A stretch of DNA of 31,264 nt from an uncultured Faecalibacterium sp. (GTDB lineage Bacteria; Bacillota; Clostridia; Oscillospirales; Ruminococcaceae), in assembly GCA_934518555.1 (NCBI GenBank), contig CAKSXW010000020.1, positions 1-31,264 on the forward strand, read 5' to 3'. Positions within the stretch are counted from its first letter, which is position 1; each line of letters opens with the position of its first letter. Below are positions 17,114-29,733 of the stretch, piece by piece. Made by a program: the position numbers and the translations under genes. Below the pieces are notes generated by a model that saw only the letters and a program-made list of their open reading frames with translations, was not told the origin of the DNA and searched no databases.

Positions 17114-17995
17114 TTACCGCTCAAAGGTGGTGCTGAGGGTGGTCTGCCAGCTCTGGCCGGGGGCCAGGGTGGCGGCGGCGGCACGCTGGTCCCAACCCTG
17201 GGGGTCGGTGGCGGCTGCAGGCAGGCTCTGCCAGGGCTCGATGCACACGAACCGCACCGGCTTTACGCTGGCGGACCAGATCAGGGTGTAGGGGAAGTCC
17301 TGGATGTTGCAGCGGATGGCACGGCCGGTGTCTTTTTCGCAGATGCTGAGGGTCTTGGAATGCAGCCCCGTCATGCAGATGCTGTCCACTGCAAACAGCT
17401 CATCCGTCAGCTGGATGGCAGACTGGTTCTTGCACTGGTAGAAGCACTTGCCGCTCAGCAGGCCCCCTGCACTGGCGTCCATGACCATGGGGCTTTCCGG
17501 CTGGTCAAAGCGGAACTCGTAATCGGTGGTGGTATGGTGGGAGTCAAAAGGGATGTTGAAGGCCGGGTGGTAGCCGATGCCAAACCGCAGCTCCTCTGCG
17601 CCTGGGTTTGTCACCTGCAGGGTGTGGTGCACCGTCTTGCCCTCCAGCCGGAAGGTGCTGGTAAGCACAAAATCATAGGGGAACCGCTGGGCCTTGATGG
17701 CCTCGTCGGACCGCAGCTCCAGCTGGATGGTGTCCCCTTCCGCCCGGAGCAGGGTGTGCTCCAGGTCCCGGGCAAAGCCGTGCTGGCCCCCCTGCCAGGT
17801 CTTGCCCTTGGCCTCAAAGGTGCCGCCCACCAGCTTGCCGGTCCAGGGGAACAGGATGGGGGCGTGACGCTTCCAGACCGCCGGGTCTGCCTGCCAGAGC
17901 ATCTCCTCCCCTGCTGCGTTTTTCAGGCTGACGGCCTCGGCGCCGTAGGTGTCCACCGTCAGGGTCAAAAATTCGTTGTGAATGGTTGCCTGCAT
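17114..17995 (-). CDS. Aldose 1-epimerase family protein (LacX-like)
   Basis: A 293-residue galactose-mutarotase-like protein expected to interconvert alpha and beta anomers of a hexose or to act on a related sugar. It has the LacX/YihR type layout: LFPWTGKL, QHGFARD (His72), GYHPAFNIP (His143) and a C-terminal CIEPWQSLP (Glu253), which correspond to the two histidines and the glutamate used by mutarotases. I chose ATG 17995 with AAAGGAG 8 bases upstream; the frame extends to 18079 without a better start. It is transcribed alone, divergently from the SleC-like gene. A TATACT lies on the minus strand at 18048-18043, but the matching -35 is poor. Substrate unknown. Confidence 0.88.
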   Translation of the reverse strand: MQATIHNEFLTLTVDTYGAEAVSLKNAAGEEMLWQADPAVWKRHAPILFPWTGKLVGGTFEAKGKTWQGGQHGFARDLEHTLLRAEGDTIQLELRSDEAIKAQRFPYDFVLTSTFRLEGKTVHHTLQVTNPGAEELRFGIGYHPAFNIPFDSHHTTTDYEFRFDQPESPMVMDASAGGLLSGKCFYQCKNQSAIQLTDELFAVDSICMTGLHSKTLSICEKDTGRAIRCNIQDFPYTLIWSASVKPVRFVCIEPWQSLPAAATDPQGWDQRAAAATLAPGQSWQTTLSTTFER

Positions 17996-18151
17996 GATCG
18001 TTTCTCCTTTGTCCTTCTGATTTTCTGGGTCCTTCTGCCTCCAGTATACTCCCCCGGCCTGCAAAAAGAAAGCCCCCATTCACACCCAGGCCGCCGCCGG
18101 AATAGGCTGTGGGAGAACCGTGATTTCTTACAGCAAAGGAGCGATCTGCTT

Positions 18152-20743
18152 ATGACCGGAATCTTACGCCTGCAGGCCTTTGCCCCCCGGCAGTCCAGCC
18201 CCGTGGAAGGGGTGGTGTTTACTGTCAGCGGTGACGGCTTCCAGGTCCAGCGCATCACCGACGCCGCCGGAAACGCCGGGGATCTGCGCCTGGAGACCCC
18301 TGCCTGTGCCCTCTCCCTGGAGCCCGGCAGCACCACCCGGCCCTACGCCCTGTGCAGCCTTACGGCTGCCAAGCCCGGGTACCGCACCGTACGCATCCAA
18401 GGGATCCAGGTGTTCCCCGGCCAGGTGACCCTGGCCCAGCCGGAAATGCTGCCGGACACCCAGGCGGGCCGGGACATCCCGGAGCAGCCGGTGGTCATCC
18501 CACCTCACCCCCTCTACGCCGGGGCCAGCGGCAGCGGCCCGGAGCCAAGGGTCCACTGCCCGGCCCGGGTGCTGAGCCAGGTCATCATCCCCAAGACCAT
18601 CACCGTGCACCTGGGCAAGCCTGCTGCCGCCGCCCGGAACGTCACCGTGTCCTTCCGGGATTATATCGCCAACGTGGCCTCCAGTGAGGTGTACCCTACC
18701 TGGCCGGAGCAGGCTTTACGGGCCAACATCCACTGCCAGATCTCCCTGGCCCTGAACCGCATCTACACCGAGTGGTACCCCAGCAAGGGCTACAGTTTCA
18801 ACATCACCAACTCCACCAGCTACGACCAATACTACGTCCACGGCCGGACGGTGTTTGACGTGATGGTGCGGATCACCGACGATATCTTCAACACCTACCT
18901 GCGGAAGGCCGGTACCGTGAACCCCTACTACGCCGAGTACTGCGACGGCAAGTCGGTGACCTGCCCGGGGCTCAAACAGTGGGGCACCGTGACCCTGGCC
19001 AACCAGGGCCGCAACGCCCTGCAGATCCTGCAATACTACTACGGCAAGGACATCCAGATCCTCCGGTGCCAAAACCTCCAGGCCATCCCCCAGAGCTACC
19101 CCGGCACGGCTCTGCGGCAGGGGGCCCGGGGCACGGCGGTGTTCACCCTTCAGCGGCAGCTGAACCGCATTACCAAGGACTACCCCTTTCTGGGCAAACT
19201 GACGGTGGACGGGGTTTTTGGCCCCCAGATGACCGCCACGGTCCAGCGGTTCCAGCGGCAGTTCAACCTGACCCCCGACGGGGTGGTGGGGCGGCAGACC
19301 TGGTACAAGATCAGCTATATCTATGTGTCGGTCAAGGACCTGGCAGAGCTGACCAGCGAGGGGGAAGTGGCCAGCGGCACCCTTTCTGACGGCACCTGGG
19401 GCGGCACCGTTTTAAGGTCCGGCTCCACCGGCCGTGCCGTGGAGCAGCTGCAATTCTGGCTGAACACCCTGGCACAGTACGACGCCGCCATTCCATCGGT
19501 GCAGGTGGACGGGGTCTACGGCTCCGGCACCACCGCCGCCGTCAAGGCTTTTCAGCGCAAATACGGCCTGACGGTGGACGGCATCACAGGCCGGGACACC
19601 TGGACCCGGCTCTACGACCAGTTCCGCAGCATCCAGACCGACAACGGCACCCCCAACGCCTACCCCGGCACCGCCCTGCGGCAGGGCAGCCGGGGCCAGA
19701 ACGTGCGGCTGGTGCAGTTCTGGCTGAAGATCGCCCGGAGCCTCTACCCAAGCCTTGCCTCCATCACGGTGGACGGCAGCTTTGGCCCAGCCACCACGGC
19801 GGCGGTCCGGCGGTTCCAGGCCTATTTTGGTCTTGCCAGCGACGGCGTAGTGGGGCGGCGCACCTGGAACAAGCTGTACGAGGTGTACAACGACATTGCC
19901 AACCAGCTGCTGTCCCCCTCCCTGCGGCCGGGGGAATACCCTGGGCGGCTGCAGCTGGGCAGCACCGGCACGGCGGTACGGGAGCTGCAATTCTACCTGT
20001 ACCTGCTGAGTGCCTATGAGAGCAGCATCCCGGCCCCGGCCCTGGACGGGCGGTTCGGCCCCGGCACACAGGCGGCGGTAAAGGCCTACCAGCGGTTTGC
20101 CGGGCTCCCGGTGGACGGGGTGGTGGGCCGGGAGACCTGGGCCTCCCTGTACGGCAAGGCCTCGGCCCTCCGATCCTCCGGTCCGGTGGTGGTCCTGAAG
20201 CGGCTGCCCTACCCCGGCACCGCCCTGGCCCCCGGCAGCAGCGGCGAAGCGGTGCTGTACTACAGCCTGCTGCTGCAGCGGATCGCCTACTACTTTGACA
20301 GTGTGGAGCCTGCCCCTTTGGCCCCGGACTACACCGACGCCACCGCTGCCGCCACCCGGAGTGCCCAGGCTTTGCTGGGTCTGCCGGAGACCGGCGTGGC
20401 CGACGCCGACACCTGGGCCGCTGTAGAGGCCCTGAGCCTGGAATTGGCAGCCCTGGGCCCCGGCAGCCCCCGGCAGGACCCGGCTTACCCGGGGCGAGGG
20501 TTCCGGCAGGGCAGTGCCGGGCCTGCGGTGGGCCAGATCCAAGGCTGGCTGAACCACCGGGCCAAGGGCCAGTGCGGAGAGGACTATCTGCCGGAGACCT
20601 GCTGTTTTGGCCCGGCAGACACCGATGCTGTCCGGCAGACCCAGCAGCAAGCAGGGCTGGAGCCCACCGGCACCGTAGACCGCCGGACCTGGGCTGCCCT
20701 GCGGCCCCAGAGCTGCGGCTGCCCGGAGAAAAAGGAGGAGTGA
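18152..20743 (+). CDS. SleC-like cell-wall lytic protein with SpoIID-type domain and six peptidoglycan-binding repeats
   Basis: An 863-residue protein. Residues ~1-105 match the N-terminal domain of clostridial spore cortex-lytic enzyme SleC (a beta domain ending in GYRTVRIQGIQVFPGQ), followed by a Pro-rich linker. Residues ~150-312 form a SpoIID/SleC-type lytic domain (FRDYIANVASSEVYPTWPE, with Glu179 as the likely catalytic acid; also YCDGKSV and GLKQWGTVTLANQG). Residues ~316-863 hold six peptidoglycan-binding_1 repeats, starting near 316, 418, 504, 596, 687 and 779, most beginning YPG and containing D-G-x-x-G-x-x-T. The last two are degenerate. No signal peptide is seen, as in SleC. I chose ATG 18152 with AAAGGAG upstream; the frame opens 264 codons earlier but only antisense to the epimerase gene. 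It sits in an operon with the M15 peptidase gene. Confidence 0.85.
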   Translation: MTGILRLQAFAPRQSSPVEGVVFTVSGDGFQVQRITDAAGNAGDLRLETPACALSLEPGSTTRPYALCSLTAAKPGYRTVRIQGIQVFPGQVTLAQPEMLPDTQAGRDIPEQPVVIPPHPLYAGASGSGPEPRVHCPARVLSQVIIPKTITVHLGKPAAAARNVTVSFRDYIANVASSEVYPTWPEQALRANIHCQISLALNRIYTEWYPSKGYSFNITNSTSYDQYYVHGRTVFDVMVRITDDIFNTYLRKAGTVNPYYAEYCDGKSVTCPGLKQWGTVTLANQGRNALQILQYYYGKDIQILRCQNLQAIPQSYPGTALRQGARGTAVFTLQRQLNRITKDYPFLGKLTVDGVFGPQMTATVQRFQRQFNLTPDGVVGRQTWYKISYIYVSVKDLAELTSEGEVASGTLSDGTWGGTVLRSGSTGRAVEQLQFWLNTLAQYDAAIPSVQVDGVYGSGTTAAVKAFQRKYGLTVDGITGRDTWTRLYDQFRSIQTDNGTPNAYPGTALRQGSRGQNVRLVQFWLKIARSLYPSLASITVDGSFGPATTAAVRRFQAYFGLASDGVVGRRTWNKLYEVYNDIANQLLSPSLRPGEYPGRLQLGSTGTAVRELQFYLYLLSAYESSIPAPALDGRFGPGTQAAVKAYQRFAGLPVDGVVGRETWASLYGKASALRSSGPVVVLKRLPYPGTALAPGSSGEAVLYYSLLLQRIAYYFDSVEPAPLAPDYTDATAAATRSAQALLGLPETGVADADTWAAVEALSLELAALGPGSPRQDPAYPGRGFRQGSAGPAVGQIQGWLNHRAKGQCGEDYLPETCCFGPADTDAVRQTQQQAGLEPTGTVDRRTWAALRPQSCGCPEKKEE

Positions 20744-20746
20744 GCC

Positions 20747-21439
20747 ATGGCCCGGATCCTAATCTACGACGCCTACGAGAACAAGGTGTACACCTACGCC
20801 GACCTGAACGAGAACGACCCCATGCCCTACAGCACCGGCACCACCCTGCGGGTCCGGGAGTTCCGGGGCAAGTCCGCCAGCCCCACCCTGTGGACCACCA
20901 TTGCGGCCATGGAGGCCTGGAACCTGACCCGGCGCAAATACGGCCGGGGCATCCCGGTGGGGTACGCCTTCCGCCGCATCTGGGAAGGGGGCCACGGCAC
21001 CCGGAGCCAGCACTACGTTGGGGTATCCTTTGATGCAGGGCAGACCTTTTCCCAGCAGCAGCGCAATGCCCTGTACCAGGCCGCCCGGGGCACCGGGGCC
21101 TGGGGCTATGTGGAGCCCCTCAGCCAGACCCCCACCTGGGTGCACTTTGACCGCCGCTACGGCACCCCTGCCTGCAAGGGCACCACCGCCGGGTACCCCA
21201 CCCTCCGGCGTGGCAGCCGGGGCTGCTATGTGATGGTGCTGCAAGACGCCCTTTCGGCCCTGGGCTACCAGACCGGCAGCCGCATCGATGGGGTGTTCGG
21301 GGCCCGCACCGAGGAGGCCCTCCGAGGCTACCAGCGGCGCACCAGCCTCCGTGTGGACGGGGTCTGCGGCTGTGACAGCTGGAAAAAGATCTCCACCGCC
21401 GTTCTGGGCATCGGCCGCACCAAAACTGCCATCGACTGA
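20747..21439 (+). CDS. M15-type peptidase with C-terminal peptidoglycan-binding domain
   Basis: A 230-residue protein, 3 bases after the SleC-like gene, with GGAGGAG in the end of that gene. Residues ~45-140 resemble a D,D-/L,D-peptidase of family M15: the zinc-ligand pattern S-x-H-x(2)-G-x-S-x-D is seen as SQHYVGVSFD (His89, Asp96) and the third ligand in WVHFD (His133). Residues ~150-217 are a peptidoglycan-binding_1 repeat (YPTLRRGSRG ... DGVFGARTEEALRGYQ) of the same kind as in the neighbour. It probably trims peptide stems of the wall. No signal peptide is visible. Substrate and timing unknown. Confidence 0.75.
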   Translation: MARILIYDAYENKVYTYADLNENDPMPYSTGTTLRVREFRGKSASPTLWTTIAAMEAWNLTRRKYGRGIPVGYAFRRIWEGGHGTRSQHYVGVSFDAGQTFSQQQRNALYQAARGTGAWGYVEPLSQTPTWVHFDRRYGTPACKGTTAGYPTLRRGSRGCYVMVLQDALSALGYQTGSRIDGVFGARTEEALRGYQRRTSLRVDGVCGCDSWKKISTAVLGIGRTKTAID

Positions 21440-24015: not shown

Positions 24016-24486
24016 TTGAACATCTGGTACATCAACAGCATCCTGGGCCCCCTGTGCCTGGAGGAGCAGGACCAGGCCCTCTGGGGCCTGCATTTTTGCC
24101 CCGAGGGGGTGCCGGACCTGGAGCCTCTGCCCCGGAAGGTGGTGGAGACCCCTCTACTGCAAGAGGCAGAGGAGCAGCTGAACGAATACTTTGCCGGGGC
24201 CCGGCGGAGCTTTGACCTGCCCCTGGCCCCCCAGGGCACCCCCTTCCAGCAGGCAGTGTGGGACCAGCTGCAGCAGATCCCCTACGGAGAGGTGCGGACC
24301 TACGGCCAGCTGGCCGCTGCCCTGGGCAAACCCCAGGCCGCCCGGGCGGTGGGCCGGGCCTGCCACTGCAACCCCCTGTGCATCCTGGTGCCCTGCCACC
24401 GGGTCGTGGGGGCCCACGGCAGCCTGACCGGCTACGCCTATGGGCTGGACATCAAGCAGTATCTGCTGGAACTGGAGCAAGGGTAA
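24016..24486 (+). CDS. ogt: Methylated-DNA-protein-cysteine S-methyltransferase
   Basis: A 156-residue suicide DNA-repair protein that moves a methyl group from O6-methylguanine to its own cysteine. The active site is ILVPCHRVVG (Cys127), preceded by the helix-turn-helix part with RTYGQLAAALGKPQAARAVG. The N-terminal half (NIWYINSILGPLCL ... LWGLHF) is the shortened Ogt/MGMT ribonuclease-H-like domain. I chose TTG 24016, with GGAAAGGA upstream, since homologues begin at this point; ATG 23950 would place the promoter inside the gene. No AdaA domain is attached. Symbol ogt is by family. Confidence 0.92.
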   Translation: MNIWYINSILGPLCLEEQDQALWGLHFCPEGVPDLEPLPRKVVETPLLQEAEEQLNEYFAGARRSFDLPLAPQGTPFQQAVWDQLQQIPYGEVRTYGQLAAALGKPQAARAVGRACHCNPLCILVPCHRVVGAHGSLTGYAYGLDIKQYLLELEQG

Positions 24487-24494
24487 GCCCAAGC

Positions 24495-24537
24495 AAAAAG
24501 GACGGCTGCACAGCGTTTTGTGCAGCCGTCCTTTTTT
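24495..24537. terminator. Bidirectional terminator between ogt and nnrD
   Basis: The perfect 15-bp stem AAAGGACGGCTGCAC / GTGCAGCCGTCCTTT is flanked by A-rich and T-rich ends, serving both converging genes. Its right end touches the nnrD stop codon (24536). Confidence 0.9.
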
Positions 24538-25435
24538 ATCTGTGATTTTCTGCAAACAGGGCCCCCAGCTCCGGCAGCAGCTCATGGGGCAGCATCCCAT
24601 ATTCCCCATGCTTTGCGGCAGCCCGGTCGGCGGCGGCACCATGGAGATACACGGCGCAGGCGGCAGCCTGGTAGGCCGGCAGACCGCAGGCCAGCAGGGC
24701 CGCCACCATGCCGGACAGCACATCGCCGCTGCCGCCCCGGGCAAGGCCCGGGTTCCCGGTGGGGTTCACGCCGCAGCGGCCGTCCGGGGCCGCCACCACC
24801 GTGTGGGCCCCCTTCAGCACCACCACGGCGTTCCAGGCCCGGGCATACTCCACCGCCGTGCCTTGCCGGTCAGCGGCGATCTCTGTCGCTGAAAGCCCGG
24901 TGAGCCGGGCCATCTCTCCGGGGTGAGGGGTCACCACCAGTTCCCCTGCTGGGTGGGGGAAGGCCCTGCCCTCCCCCAGCAGCTGGGCAGCGGCGTTGAG
25001 GCCGTCGGCGTCCAGCACTGCCGCCCCGGCAAAGCCCGGCAGCAGCTTTTGCACCAGGGTCCGGGTCTCAGCGGCCCGGGCCGGGCCTTGGGCAGTGCCC
25101 CCCAGCCCGGGGCCCAGCAGCAGCACCGTAGCCTTTTGGCCCTGGAGCAGGGGCACGTTTTCCGGGGCGATGCCCCCTTTGGCCCCCGGGGTACAGGGGC
25201 ACAGGCAGCATTCCGGCAGCCGCACTGCCGCAGCCGCCACCACCGGCTCCACACTGGCCAGGGTCACGATGCCTGCCCCGGTACGCAAGGCACCCTCGGC
25301 AGCCAGCAGGGCGGCCCCCCGGTAAAAGCCACTGCCAGCCACAGCCAGCACACTGCCAAAGGTGCCCTTATGGCTGTCCCGGCTCCGGGGTGGGATGTTC
25401 TGCCAGACAAATTCATTGGTAATTTCCACAGCCAT
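24536..25435 (-). CDS. nnrD: ADP/ATP-dependent (S)-NAD(P)H-hydrate dehydratase
   Basis: A 299-residue repair enzyme that restores NADH/NADPH from the damaged hydrated forms (NADHX/NADPHX). It is a ribokinase-like fold: KGTFGSVLAVAGS (23-35), LLLGPGLGG and the phosphate/catalytic loop NPTGNPGLARGGSGDVLSG (Asp238). In many bacteria this domain is fused to the NnrE epimerase; here it stands alone and no epimerase gene is in the window. GGAGGTG lies 5 bases before the ATG. Only 74 bases separate it from the GTPase-NYN gene upstream, with no terminator seen, so the two may share a transcript. A palindrome GAACGATCGTTC lies in the gap at 25450-25461. Confidence 0.93.
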   Translation of the reverse strand: MAVEITNEFVWQNIPPRSRDSHKGTFGSVLAVAGSGFYRGAALLAAEGALRTGAGIVTLASVEPVVAAAAVRLPECCLCPCTPGAKGGIAPENVPLLQGQKATVLLLGPGLGGTAQGPARAAETRTLVQKLLPGFAGAAVLDADGLNAAAQLLGEGRAFPHPAGELVVTPHPGEMARLTGLSATEIAADRQGTAVEYARAWNAVVVLKGAHTVVAAPDGRCGVNPTGNPGLARGGSGDVLSGMVAALLACGLPAYQAAACAVYLHGAAADRAAAKHGEYGMLPHELLPELGALFAENHR

Positions 25436-25509
25436 GGTGCACCTCCAGAGAACGATCGTTCGTTATTTTATTTGCTGATGCAGCGGCAGGCGTCCACTGT
25501 TTTTGCGGC

Positions 25510-28095
25510 TCACGCCTGGCCCTGCACCAGCTCCCGGATCTGTTTTTCCACGGTCCGGACTTCTTCCTGGAACATCCGGGCCGACACCCGCAGGGCCCCG
25601 TGGCCCAGGATGATGATCTGCTCCATGCCATCGGAGGTGGCCACCCGGACCCGGCGGTTTTTGCCGATCTCGTGGGTCACACGCTCAATGAACATATCCG
25701 CCGTTTCGGCCTCCTTGGTGTACACCACATGGATGTTGTGGTACTGCTGGATGGAGCCGGGGCTGCCGGGCACCCGGTAGGCGTCGAACACCAAAATCAG
25801 CACACACTTCTGGTAGCCCTGGTAGTTGCACAGAATATCCATCAGCTTGTGCCGGGCGGCATCCAGGCTGTCCCGGGCCAGGGCGTTCAGCTCCTCCCAG
25901 GCAAAGATGATGTTGTAGCCGTCCACCAGCAGATACTCCGGGGCGATCTCCCACTGCTCTGCGGCAAAATCCGGGCGGTGAGCCTTTTGTACCGGCTGGA
26001 AGGCGGCCAGGGGGTCCCGTTTGATGGGGCCGTAGGTGCGCTCAAAGATCTTCAACAGCTCGGCATCCTCCTCCAGGGTGGCCCGGTAGGCCATGGCCCG
26101 GCGCCGGGGCCCGGTGTTGTCCGGCTCCGGCCGGGCAGCCTTGGGCCGGCCCCAGCCGCTGTCCACGTGCATATAGCTCCGCACCTGGCTCCAGGGCACC
26201 ACGAACCCGGCCCCGTGGGCGCAGAATACGGAATCCGCCGGGTCCTCCAGGTCGTGCTCCGGCTGGTAGCCCTTTTGTTCTATCACCTGCTGGGCGTTGT
26301 GGCAGGGGCGGTAGCCCTCCAATGTCAGGCTCAGGCGGCCCCGACCCCGGCTGTAGCTTACCACCTCCATGGGGTAGCCCTGCATGGTAGCCACCGGGGC
26401 GGTGCCCGTCAGCACGGCCGTTTCCTCCCCACTGGTGGGTGGGTCAAAGGTGCCCTCCATCCGCTGGATGTCACTGATGGCCCGGCCCAGGTTCTCCAGG
26501 GGCACCTCCAGCCGGAAGGTGTACCAGGGCTCCAGCAGCTGGCTTTTGGCCAGCATCAGCCCCTGCCGCACTGCCCGGTAGGTGGCCTGCCGGAAATCGC
26601 CCCCTTCCGTGTGCTTCAGGTGGGCCTTGCCAGCCAGCAGGGTGATCTTTACATCCGTCAGGGGGGAGCCGGTCAGCACCCCCCGGTGCTGCTTTTCTTC
26701 CAGGTGGGTCAGCACCAGCCGCTGCCAGTTTTTATCCAGCACTTCTTCCCGGCAGTCGGCGGCAAACTGCAGGCCGCTGCCCCGGGGCAAAGGCTCCAGC
26801 AGCAAATGCACCTCGGCGTAGTGGCGCAAAGGCTCGTAGTGGCCCACCCCCTCCATGGGTTCGGTGATGGTCTCCTTGTACAGGATGCCCCCGGGGCCAA
26901 ACTCCACTGTCAGGCCAAACCGCTCTGCCAGCAGGCTCCGCAGCACTTCCAGCTGCACCTCGCCCATCAGCTGCACATGGATCTCCCCTAGGGTCTCGTT
27001 CCACACCACATGGAGCTGGGGTTCTTCCTCCTCCAGGCGGTGGAGCTTGCCCAGGGCCCCATGGACATCGGTGCCCTCCGGCAGCAGCACCTGATAGCTC
27101 AGCACCGGCTCCAGCACCGGCACATCACTGTCCCGTTCTGCCCCCAGCCCGGTGCCGGGCTTCGGGTGGGTCAGGCCTGTAACGGCACACACCTGCCCGG
27201 GGCCCACGGCCTCCGCCAGGGTATACTTTGCTCCGGAATACAGCCGCAGCTGGTTGGCCTTTTCCGCCCAGGGCTCCCCTTCGGCGGTGCCTGTAAGCTG
27301 GGCCTTGACCTTCAGCTGGCCGCCGGTAACGCGCAGCCAGGTGAGGCGGCTGCCTTGGTCGTCCTGGGAGACCTTGAACACCTTGGCTCCAAAGGCCTCC
27401 AGTGCCGGGGCAGGCCGGGTGTACCGGTCCAGCCCCTCCAGCAGCTGATCCACCCCTTCCAGCTTCAGGGCCGAGCCGAACCAGCAGGGGAACAGGTGCC
27501 GCCGGGCAATGGCCGGCACCAGCTGGGCCTCTGTCAGGGTCCCGGCGTCCAGCAGCTGATTCATCAGGTTCTCGTCGCACAGGGCCGCAGCCTCGTCCCG
27601 GGCAGCCTGGGGAGCCCCAAAATCCACAAAGCCCTCCCCCAGACGGCGGTTCAGCTGGTCCAGAAGGGCCTGCCGCTCCATGCCGGGCAGGTCCATCTTG
27701 TTGACGAACACAAAGGTAGGCACACGGTACCGCCGCAGCAGCCGCCAGAGGGTCTCGGTGTGGCTCTGCACCCCGTCGGTGCCGCTGACCACCAGCACGG
27801 CGTAATCCAGCACCTGGAGGGTCCGCTCGGTCTCGGTGGAAAAATCCACGTGGCCCGGGGTGTCCAGCAGGGTAAAGTCTGTATTGCCTGCCGTCAGCAG
27901 GGCCTGCTTGGAAAAAATGGTGATGCCCCGGGCCCGTTCCAGGGTATCGGTGTCCAAAAAGGCGTCCTTGTGGTCCACCCGGCCCAGCTTCCGGATGGCA
28001 CCGGAACGGTACAGCAGAGCCTCCGACAGGGTGGTCTTGCCGGAGTCTACATGGGCCAGAATGCCCAGCACGATCTGTTTGCGTGTTGTTTCCAT
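25510..28095 (-). CDS. TetM/EF-G-like ribosomal GTPase fused to a C-terminal NYN (Rae1/YacP-type) nuclease domain
   Basis: An 861-residue two-part protein. Residues ~1-650 are a translational GTPase of the tetracycline-resistance (TetM/TetO) branch of EF-G: G1 AHVDSGKT (14-21), G2 RARGIT (54-59), G3 DTPGH (78-82), G4 NKMD (132-135), G5 GSA (207-209), then the beta-barrel and C-terminal ribosome-binding domains. After a linker (~650-715), residues ~720-850 form an NYN domain like Bacillus Rae1/YacP (LLVDGYNIIFAW; acidic residues Asp725, Asp771, Asp800 and Asp822 in the usual positions). TetM-type factors bind the ribosomal A site; Rae1 cuts mRNA in the A site on translating ribosomes. The fusion may rescue or survey stalled ribosomes. 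It should not be called a resistance gene from sequence. It has AGGAG and a TACAAT -10 upstream. Confidence 0.9.
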   Translation of the reverse strand: METTRKQIVLGILAHVDSGKTTLSEALLYRSGAIRKLGRVDHKDAFLDTDTLERARGITIFSKQALLTAGNTDFTLLDTPGHVDFSTETERTLQVLDYAVLVVSGTDGVQSHTETLWRLLRRYRVPTFVFVNKMDLPGMERQALLDQLNRRLGEGFVDFGAPQAARDEAAALCDENLMNQLLDAGTLTEAQLVPAIARRHLFPCWFGSALKLEGVDQLLEGLDRYTRPAPALEAFGAKVFKVSQDDQGSRLTWLRVTGGQLKVKAQLTGTAEGEPWAEKANQLRLYSGAKYTLAEAVGPGQVCAVTGLTHPKPGTGLGAERDSDVPVLEPVLSYQVLLPEGTDVHGALGKLHRLEEEEPQLHVVWNETLGEIHVQLMGEVQLEVLRSLLAERFGLTVEFGPGGILYKETITEPMEGVGHYEPLRHYAEVHLLLEPLPRGSGLQFAADCREEVLDKNWQRLVLTHLEEKQHRGVLTGSPLTDVKITLLAGKAHLKHTEGGDFRQATYRAVRQGLMLAKSQLLEPWYTFRLEVPLENLGRAISDIQRMEGTFDPPTSGEETAVLTGTAPVATMQGYPMEVVSYSRGRGRLSLTLEGYRPCHNAQQVIEQKGYQPEHDLEDPADSVFCAHGAGFVVPWSQVRSYMHVDSGWGRPKAARPEPDNTGPRRRAMAYRATLEEDAELLKIFERTYGPIKRDPLAAFQPVQKAHRPDFAAEQWEIAPEYLLVDGYNIIFAWEELNALARDSLDAARHKLMDILCNYQGYQKCVLILVFDAYRVPGSPGSIQQYHNIHVVYTKEAETADMFIERVTHEIGKNRRVRVATSDGMEQIIILGHGALRVSARMFQEEVRTVEKQIRELVQGQA

Positions 28096-28126
28096 CCGCT
28101 TCTCCTACCATCAAAATATCCCTTTT

Positions 28127-28132
28127 ATTGTA
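28127..28132 (-). promoter_or_regulatory. Possible -10 box for the GTPase-NYN gene
   Basis: On the minus strand TACAAT lies 31 bases before the start codon. A matching -35 is poor (T-rich, near the preceding terminator), so the promoter is tentative. Confidence 0.4.
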
Positions 28133-28143
28133 GCACGGAAGTG

Positions 28144-28193
28144 GAAAAAAGAAAAGCGGAGGCACCGCTGTTCGCAGTTCCTCCGCCTTTTTT
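28144..28193. terminator. Terminator after gpmI
   Basis: The stem GCGGAGG / CCTCCGC (28156-28162 with 28180-28186) has T-runs outside it on both strands. On the minus strand it ends the glycolytic transcript. Confidence 0.75.
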
Positions 28194-28206
28194 TCAGCAG
28201 AAAAGG

Positions 28207-29733
28207 TTACTCCAGAATGATGCTCTTGCCGGTCATCTCTGCCGGGACAGGCAGACCGATATAGGGCAGCATGGTGGGAGCGATGTCGGCCAGGCAGCCG
28301 CCCTCCCGGAGCTTCACGTTGCCGCAGCCCACTGCCACAAAGGGCACCACATTGGTGGTGTGGGCAGTAAAGGGGGTGCCGTCCGGGTTCATCATCTTTT
28401 CGGCGTTGCCGTGGTCAGCGGTGATAAAGGCGCAGCCGCCGGCCTTCAGCACAGCAGACACCACCTGATCCACGCAGGTATCCACAGCCTCCACAGCCTT
28501 GACAGCTGCGTCGAACACGCCGGTGTGGCCCACCATATCGCAGTTGGCGAAGTTCAGGATCACCACATCATACTTGCCGCTCTCGATGCGCTTGACGCAC
28601 TCGGCAGCCACGGCAGGTGCGCTCATCTCCGGCTGCAGGTCGTAGGTAGCCACCTTGGGGCTGGGGATCACGCAGCGGTCCTCTCCCTCGTAGGGGGCCT
28701 CCACGCCGCCGTTGAAGAAGAAGGTGACGTGGGCGTACTTCTCGGTCTCGGCGATCCGCAGCTGGGTCTTGCCGTGGGCAGACAGATACTCACCCAGAAC
28801 GTTCTTCAGCTCCACCGGGGGGTAAGCCACTTCGCAGTTGGGCATGGTGGCGTCGTACTCGGCCATGCAGACGTAGTGCACCTGCTTGCGGCCGCCCCGA
28901 CGCTCAAAGCCGGTAAAGGCATCGTCACAGAAGATCCGGGTCATCTGACGGGCACGGTCCGGGCGGAAGTTCATGAAGATAACGGTGTCGCCATCCTCCA
29001 CACGGCCGCCCTCACAGGTGACGCAAGGCAGCACGAACTCGTCGGTGGTGTCGGCTGCGTAAGAAGCCTCCATGGCCTCAGCAGCGTTGGCAGCGTGCTG
29101 GCCCTCGCCGTAAACAAAGGCAGCATAGGCCTTTTCTTCACGGTCCCAGTTGTTGTCACGGTCCATGGCGTAGTAACGGCCGGAAACGCTGGCGATCTTG
29201 CCCACGCCCAGCTCGTCCAGCTTGGCCTGCAGGTCTGCCAGGAAGCCCTTGCCGGAGTGGGGGTCGGTGTCACGGCCGTCGGTGATGCAGTGGAGGAACA
29301 CGTCCTTAGCACCCATGTGCTTGGCCATCTCCAGCACACCGAACCAGTGGTCCGCATGGCTGTGGACGCCGCCGGTGCCCACCAGGCCCATCAGATGGAT
29401 GGCCTTGCCGGCGTCAATGGCAGCCTGCATGTTCTTGACCAGAACAGGGTTCTTGAGCATCTCGCCGTCCTTGATGGACTTGGTGATGAGGGTGAGCTGC
29501 TGGTACACGATGCGGCCTGCACCCATATTGGTGTGGCCCACCTCAGAGTTGCCCATCTGGCCGTCGGGCAGGCCCACAGCCATGCCGGAGGCCTCGATGG
29601 TGGTCATGGGGTACTTTTCCATCAGAGCATCCAGATGGGGGGTCTTGGCGGCCACCACAGCGTTGCCGTAGGTCTCATTGGGCACCCAGCCAAAGCCATC
29701 CATGATGCACAGAAGAACAGGTTTCTTTGCCAT
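28207..29733 (-). CDS. gpmI: 2,3-bisphosphoglycerate-independent phosphoglycerate mutase
   Basis: A metal-dependent glycolytic enzyme (508 residues) interconverting 3- and 2-phosphoglycerate. The alkaline-phosphatase-like fold shows the start MDGFGW (11-16), the phospho-serine motif GNSEVGH (Ser63), HSHADHWFG, ITDGRDTDP, FRPDRARQ and the metal-binding ADHGNAE and DMVGHTG segments. Full length. The usual NSEVGHLNIGAGR appears as NSEVGHTNMGAGR, a small variation. AAAGGAG-type ribosome binding site upstream. It is third in a pgk-tpiA-gpmI cluster on the minus strand, but a hairpin separates it from tpiA. Confidence 0.97.
   Translation of the reverse strand: MAKKPVLLCIMDGFGWVPNETYGNAVVAAKTPHLDALMEKYPMTTIEASGMAVGLPDGQMGNSEVGHTNMGAGRIVYQQLTLITKSIKDGEMLKNPVLVKNMQAAIDAGKAIHLMGLVGTGGVHSHADHWFGVLEMAKHMGAKDVFLHCITDGRDTDPHSGKGFLADLQAKLDELGVGKIASVSGRYYAMDRDNNWDREEKAYAAFVYGEGQHAANAAEAMEASYAADTTDEFVLPCVTCEGGRVEDGDTVIFMNFRPDRARQMTRIFCDDAFTGFERRGGRKQVHYVCMAEYDATMPNCEVAYPPVELKNVLGEYLSAHGKTQLRIAETEKYAHVTFFFNGGVEAPYEGEDRCVIPSPKVATYDLQPEMSAPAVAAECVKRIESGKYDVVILNFANCDMVGHTGVFDAAVKAVEAVDTCVDQVVSAVLKAGGCAFITADHGNAEKMMNPDGTPFTAHTTNVVPFVAVGCGNVKLREGGCLADIAPTMLPYIGLPVPAEMTGKSIILE

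Follow-up and report, generated by a model that had tools for sequence, protein, structure and literature searches.

A translational GTPase fused to a YacP-type nuclease in place of stand-alone Rae1 in genomes of Clostridia

A GTPase–nuclease fusion gene and its distribution

The window analyzed here is a stretch of 31,264 nucleotides from an uncultured Faecalibacterium sp. (contig CAKSXW010000020.1), which carries on its minus strand a gene for a translational GTPase fused to a C-terminal NYN nuclease domain of the Rae1/YacP type. An earlier reading of the sequence alone had described a single uninterrupted 861-codon gene with the G motifs of a translational GTPase and four acidic NYN residues (Asp725, 771, 800 and 822), all of which we confirmed at those residues. 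The parts of the gene, in window coordinates, are as follows:

25510..28095, minus strand: GTPase–Rae1/YacP-type NYN nuclease fusion gene, 861 codons, ATG start, uninterrupted (open reading frame call and Pfam)
27418..28074, minus strand: G domain, residues 8-226, with AHVDSGKT, RGITI, DTPGH, NKMD and GSALK (Pfam and alignment)
27154..27387, minus strand: domain II, residues 237-314, a weak Pfam match below the cut-off (Pfam and fold comparison)
26896..27111, minus strand: domain III, residues 329-400 (Pfam)
26548..26886, minus strand: domain IV, residues 404-516 (Pfam)
26596..26622, minus strand: domain IV tip loop, residues 492-500, HLKHTEGGD, occupying the position of the Tet [SG]P[VI]ST motif (alignments)
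26290..26541, minus strand: domain V, residues 519-602 (Pfam)
26164..26289, minus strand: C-terminal extension, residues 603-644, common to the unfused subfamily, with conserved C625, W635 and H643 (alignments; ordered in the model)
25936..26163, minus strand: linker, residues 645-720, mainly disordered, with a single predicted helix at 665-688 (model and alignment)
25513..25935, minus strand: NYN_YacP (Rae1-type) nuclease domain, residues 721-861 (Pfam and structure-database match)
25921..25923, minus strand: Asp725 codon (kept in 83 of 83)
25783..25785, minus strand: Asp771 codon (kept in 83 of 83)
25696..25698, minus strand: Asp800 codon (kept in 83 of 83)
25630..25632, minus strand: Asp822 codon (kept in 83 of 83)

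Pfam searches with the fusion protein recover GTP_EFTU (residues 8-226; 2.8e-50), EFG_III (329-400), EFG_IV (404-516) and EFG_C (519-602); the EF-G_D2 match at residues 237-314 reaches 23.1 bits, below the 27-bit cut-off, with domain II nonetheless present in the predicted fold. The NYN_YacP match at residues 722-858 (1.8e-49) scores 168.4 bits against a cut-off of 24.6, and the NYN part alone matches the crystal structures of B. subtilis YacP, 5mq9 and 5mq8 (E = 1.9e-26). The linker is mostly of low confidence in the structure model, and for this reason the model leaves the predicted position of the NYN domain relative to the ribosome unfixed; the fold comparison reached mainly residues 1-624.

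We aligned 83 fused sequences, namely the window, 80 loci and two further loci (L102 and L103), some of which are near-copies of each other. The sequence-only reading had staked itself on retention of the acidic NYN residues across homologs, and D725, D771, D800 and D822, along with N728 and Y773, are invariant in all 83. The same acidic residues occur in the alignment with B. subtilis YacP, and the conserved acidic residues of NYN domains have a catalytic role. On the GTPase side, NKxD is present in 83 of 83 sequences and GKT, GIT and DTPGH in all 82 that extend this far, the remaining row lacking its beginning; the residue before GIT, Arg56, is Lys in one fused row.

The fusion is found far more often than chance would allow. 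When only residues 712-861 were scored, a protein search whose candidate lengths followed from the full-length protein returned at least 7,994 candidates, all at E ≤ 0.001, and 120 among the matches listed all have both the GTPase and the NYN Pfam domains. Genome contigs contain 422 stretches encoding a relative, and the 80 loci retained from these all reach query residue 853 or beyond; among them, the closest named relatives with DNA are four Faecalibacterium loci (L001, L002, L031 and L003; three at 88%, one at 86%). Carriers of the fusion include members of Oscillospiraceae, Lachnospiraceae and Monoglobaceae (a Monoglobus replicon).

An origin of the fusion on phages or plasmids was considered and rejected, as only two of the 72,556 plasmid records (one of them a 518-kb Monoglobus replicon) and two of the 113 phage-collection records with a match (both unannotated) cover 80% of the query. 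The two best phage matches listed, MT835563.1 and MT835514.1, are filed as faecal 'Bacteriophage sp.' and align with 99% of the protein at 82.8% and 50.6% identity, respectively; they are probably misfiled bacterial contigs.

Replacement of stand-alone Rae1

The fusion replaces stand-alone Rae1 in the genomes that carry it. We sampled 391 genomes from the class of a Faecalibacterium genome, taken as Clostridia, and found an NYN_YacP match in 249, above the cut-off in 248. Classed by open-frame length alone (fused, at least 700 residues; alone, at most 220; unclassed, anything between), the tally is 129 genomes fused, 108 alone and 12 unclassed, with G360 counted in both states and 236 genomes classed. 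The sequence-only reading had proposed asking how often the fusion occurs and whether a stand-alone Rae1 is missing beside it: a frame of fused size is thus present in 129 of the 391 genomes, and stand-alone Rae1 is absent from nearly all of these, G360 being the exception and the only genome among the 248 with both states. Further second NYN_YacP matches (G166, G231 and G272) fall below the cut-off, and in a 148-genome subset a GTPase match is present in every genome with an NYN frame longer than 220 residues. Among 30 genomes picked as fusion carriers (the window's own is not one of them), 29 have a single NYN_YacP match; the metagenome-assembled genome G019, also among the 30, has two extra partial matches on one contig. 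Separately, G163 has two fused copies, L115 and L116 (contigs C48 and C16), which lie in different parts of the fused clade and represent either a mixed bin or real paralogs.

The order rlmB-yacP-sigH occurs in 13 of 16 stand-alone yacP loci tested, a set that leaves out L092 and L095-L098, and the three exceptions retain sigH only (L099), rlmB only (L136, whose frame length is unclassed) or neither (L127, from G273). The NYN domain of the window is not a small stand-alone protein in such an operon and has other neighbors. Around the best rlmB of ten fusion genomes (about 1.5 kb of flank) no yacP match was found in any; two of them, Extibacter muris and Dorea sp. D27, have cysS-mrnC-rlmB-sigH with no yacP in between, and in the remaining eight sigH lies outside that flank. 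G360 retains rlmB-yacP-sigH plus a fused gene. The pattern fits capture of the nuclease and subsequent loss of the operon copy.

The adjacency of stand-alone yacP to the rRNA methylase gene rlmB, together with an older proposal of a role for the NYN domain in rRNA/tRNA maturation cited in the available portion of Atkinson 2015 (PMC4342817), speaks for the idea that the fusion acts in rRNA or pre-tRNA processing or ribosome assembly, its GTPase docking on (pre-)ribosomes and its NYN domain trimming rRNA. We consider this improbable: the available portions of two reports describe the B. subtilis relative, Rae1, as an endoribonuclease that cuts mRNA in the A site (PMC6613710, PMC12320835), and nothing in the present analysis points to rRNA.

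A tree of the NYN domain, built from 33 fused and 20 stand-alone rows (chosen from 94 and 20, respectively), is short and weakly resolved, and contains two changes between the states: a fused sequence of G056 at the edge of the stand-alone group (88/68) and a stand-alone one of G273 within the fused group (95/89). A single origin of the fusion is plausible from these sequences.

The surroundings of the fusion gene hold two further features, both upstream of its start:

28144..28195, minus strand: hairpin plus U tract resembling an intrinsic terminator, in the gap from the iPGM gene to the fusion gene (folding energy)
28101..28107, minus strand: Shine-Dalgarno-like TAGGAGA, 5 bases ahead of the ATG (by eye)

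The hairpin (-27.6 kcal/mol, z = -4.30, none of 200 shuffles equally good) separates the fusion gene from an upstream phosphoglycerate mutase (iPGM) gene at 28207-29733, and we infer that the fusion gene is its own transcription unit; this is weakened by the promoter scan, which gave no sigma-70 match, and by the count of terminator-like sites in 24400-28400, which at 4 does not exceed the mean for shuffled sequence (2.8, sd 1.8). Clustering of neighbors across 81 loci with a crude open reading frame caller gave as its biggest clusters the fusion itself (71 loci) and its antisense frame (8), and no further cluster in more than 6 of the 81 loci that might serve as a functional clue. An NAD(P)H-hydrate dehydratase gene neighbors the fusion in the window and four Faecalibacterium loci. 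Elsewhere in the window, at 17360-21439 on the plus strand, a 1127-codon open reading frame with six peptidoglycan-binding stretches is followed by one of 230 codons with one more.

A GTPase subfamily outside the Tet clade

By its G motifs and domains G to V, the GTPase part belongs to the EF2 superfamily, within which sequence comparison places it in a subfamily of its own, outside the Tet clade. The nearest curated model is tet_protect (NF012153), at 394.1 bits against a cut-off of 775, and the EF-G model TIGR00484 scores 272.8 against 659.4; unfused relatives reach 432 and 414 bits with tet_protect. In a midpoint-rooted tree of 48 chosen proteins, which drew treekit warnings on long branches and uneven composition, fused and unfused proteins together make up one clade (100/99), TetM/O/W with the TetB(P)-like and OtrA-like proteins a separate one (100/99), and the EF-G types another (100/100). 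The tip loop of domain IV reads [SG]P[VI]ST in all five Tet-type proteins (TetM, TetO, TetW, TetB(P)-like and OtrA-like) and HxKHTEGGD in all 83 fused sequences, with Lys494 aligned to the proline of all five Tet types, which in TetM is Pro509, a residue that contacts the drug site. Lys494 is kept in eight unfused genes from the sampled class. In the comparison with the five Tet types, where the L. salivarius row (U_Lsal) starts at an inner Met and the U_G059 row, a wrong frame, was disregarded, its place is taken by Glu in the Paenibacillus protein and by Val in that of L. salivarius, both of which retain HTxGGD. Furthermore, 32 columns hold a residue that is fixed in at least 97% of 91 fused and unfused sequences and that none of the six reference proteins has.

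The sequence-only reading had called the GTPase TetM-type, which holds for the order of its domains and fails for membership in the family: the TetM family was rejected on the tet_protect cut-off, the Tet clade and the tip loop, and EF-G on the TIGR00484 cut-off and its separate clade. Sequence kinship to Tet is real, because the curated Tet model is the nearest one, and stops short of membership. This bears on the suggestion, made in the available portion of Atkinson 2015, that such proteins protect the ribosome against tetracycline or another A-site drug, the added RNase aiding resistance. The proximity to tet_protect over EF-G, the TetM-like domain order, the classification as Tet in the available portion of that paper and the Tet-family annotation of some unfused relatives on L. 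salivarius plasmids speak for it; the shortfall from the tet_protect cut-off by fused and unfused members alike, the replaced tip loop with Lys at the Tet proline, the separate clade, and the distribution, which is that of a resident gene replacing Rae1 and seldom found on plasmid records, make it very improbable.

At least 97% of the subfamily, fused and unfused, likewise has C598, C625 and H643 (within residues 598-644, window 26164-26304), and none of the six Tet/EF-G references does; the three residues are candidates for a metal site in the C-terminal extension.

The unfused members were delineated in the 148-genome subset, in which 61 genomes match residues 1-695 at E ≤ 1e-100, 54 being of the fused type and seven unfused. 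The 54 include broken or cut frames (G081, G100, G161 and G169) and have the NYN domain in 53, the contig of G161 ending first. The seven unfused-member genomes carry eight genes with frames of 655-671 residues, which match to residue ~645 at 44-48% identity, lack linker and NYN domain, and share 43-48% identity with the fusion over residues 6-600. A separate stand-alone YacP is present in three of the seven (G098, G151 and G175). The other 87 genomes of the subset have stand-alone NYN only (42) or neither (45). Further unfused members come from a Paenibacillus replicon and from plasmids of Ligilactobacillus salivarius, and we recognized no functional study of any unfused member among the papers listed in literature searches. 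On one L. salivarius plasmid (L131:2384-4902) the unfused GTPase gene lies beside an rpsN (S14) gene and an opposite-strand gene for a 'putative metal homeostasis protein'; as a guess, this GTPase may belong to ribosomes remodeled under metal shortage.

Proposed mechanism and comparison with known systems

The fusion has become the only Rae1 in its genomes, and because of this it most likely does Rae1's job. We propose, with an even chance of being right, that this is how Rae1 exists in Clostridia, with the endonuclease that cuts mRNA in the A site borne by a translational GTPase of its own. The sequence-only reading had suggested that GTP-driven binding could place the nuclease in the A site. 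In EF-G and TetM it is domain IV itself that occupies the decoding A site; therefore, the NYN domain would have to follow domain IV rather than join it, and the suggestion would need changing to that extent. We infer ribosome binding, GTP dependence and mRNA cleavage in the following order: the GTPase body would bind the factor site of a ribosome with an open A site (paused, starved or drug-blocked); domain IV would probe the decoding site, and GTP hydrolysis triggered by the ribosome would move it out; the NYN domain, on its linker of about 75 residues, would then enter the vacated A site and cut the mRNA, and the truncated complex left behind would pass to trans-translation and exonucleases. 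More tentatively, the GTPase subfamily as a whole, so far unrecognized among bacteria and distinct from EF-G and Tet, might be a GTP-timed sensor of open A sites that bears a nuclease tail in about half of the genomes of this class having Rae1, where it would act as a GTP-clocked, one-protein no-go decay factor, and whose unfused members would pair with free Rae1 on the ribosome where both exist.

Several observations weigh against GTP-coupled cleavage and in part favor its main rival, co-production, in which the NYN domain does the ordinary Rae1 job, the GTPase serves as its own subfamily's EF-G- or LepA-like aid to elongation or recycling, and the two are tethered without GTP coupling. On the structures of each, domain IV and Rae1 would compete for the A site. 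The linker is long, mainly disordered and poorly conserved except for one helix motif. The unfused members of the subfamily occur with a separate Rae1, as noted, or, in four of the seven genomes, without any NYN_YacP, and the tree, like 200 of 200 bootstrap trees, places the NYN-free copies of L. salivarius within the fused clade, a position that no starred branch forces. G273 has a detached NYN domain of 173 residues (L141:6787-7308), which lies outside the rlmB-sigH operon and groups with the fused sequences; a different contig of this genome carries an unfused GTPase, and the arrangement could be a secondary split of the fusion. Finally, the exclusivity of the fused and stand-alone states is confounded by shared descent, such that the 236 genomes are not independent events, and their completeness was not given. 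We nevertheless regard co-production as less likely, in that the fused state is held by 129 of the 236 classed genomes across three families and the helix motif of the linker is kept in 70 of 83 fused sequences, whereas for uncoupled activities separate genes would do equally well.

If the GTPase-coupled mechanism is correct, an enzyme coupled to a GTPase cuts ribosome-bound mRNA in Faecalibacterium, Ruminococcus, Dorea and related bacteria that are common in the gut, and Rae1 gains a means of entry into ribosomes that is open to dissection with GTP analogs. The fusion further predicts a possible partnership of free Rae1 with the GTPases of the subfamily that lack the nuclease. Many proteins, some of which are filed as tetracycline resistance, would also leave that class, which bears on resistome counts.

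The architecture has been known since 2015; what is new is that it replaces Rae1 and that its GTPase represents a separate subfamily. According to the available portion of Atkinson 2015 (PMC4342817), a YacP-like NYN RNase domain was gained by Tet proteins in ten Clostridiales species, and their RNase ability was proposed for testing. That is the sole paper we recognized as naming the fusion, with an earlier remark possible in Leroy 2017 or Condon 2018, both on Rae1. The term 'NYN' does not occur in the available portion of one resistome study (PMC7725328). The statement of the sequence-only reading that no characterized function is known for such a fusion therefore stands insofar as we found no functional test in the literature, and needs amending in that the fusion itself had been reported. 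As far as the available portion of that paper goes, its clostridial 'Tet' proteins have the same combination of GTPase and YacP-like NYN domains and are very probably the same family; they were classed there as Tet, whereas in the present analysis the GTPase groups outside that clade, counts unfused proteins among its relatives and takes the place of stand-alone Rae1.

Among known systems, B. subtilis Rae1/YacP resembles the C-terminal part of the fusion along an alignment covering residues 721-857, in its acidic residues and in occurring, as a rule, in one copy per genome; it differs in that stand-alone YacP is a protein of about 170-200 residues usually encoded between rlmB and sigH, whereas the NYN of the fusion is a domain of a GTPase encoded at another locus. 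TetM, TetO, TetB(P) and OtrA share with the fusion the order of domains and a shortened G-prime insert (Tet(M) is 27-30% identical to eight fused rows over residues 6-600) and are set apart by the tip loop, the clade, the curated cut-off and the 32 subfamily-fixed columns. EF-G and archaeal EF2 likewise fall in a clade separate from the fusion GTPase. The unfused subfamily members, some of which in L. salivarius are named 'translation factor GTPase family protein' by NCBI, have the same domain IV loops and the same C-terminal extension to residue ~644 as the fusion, which differs from them in its linker and NYN domain.

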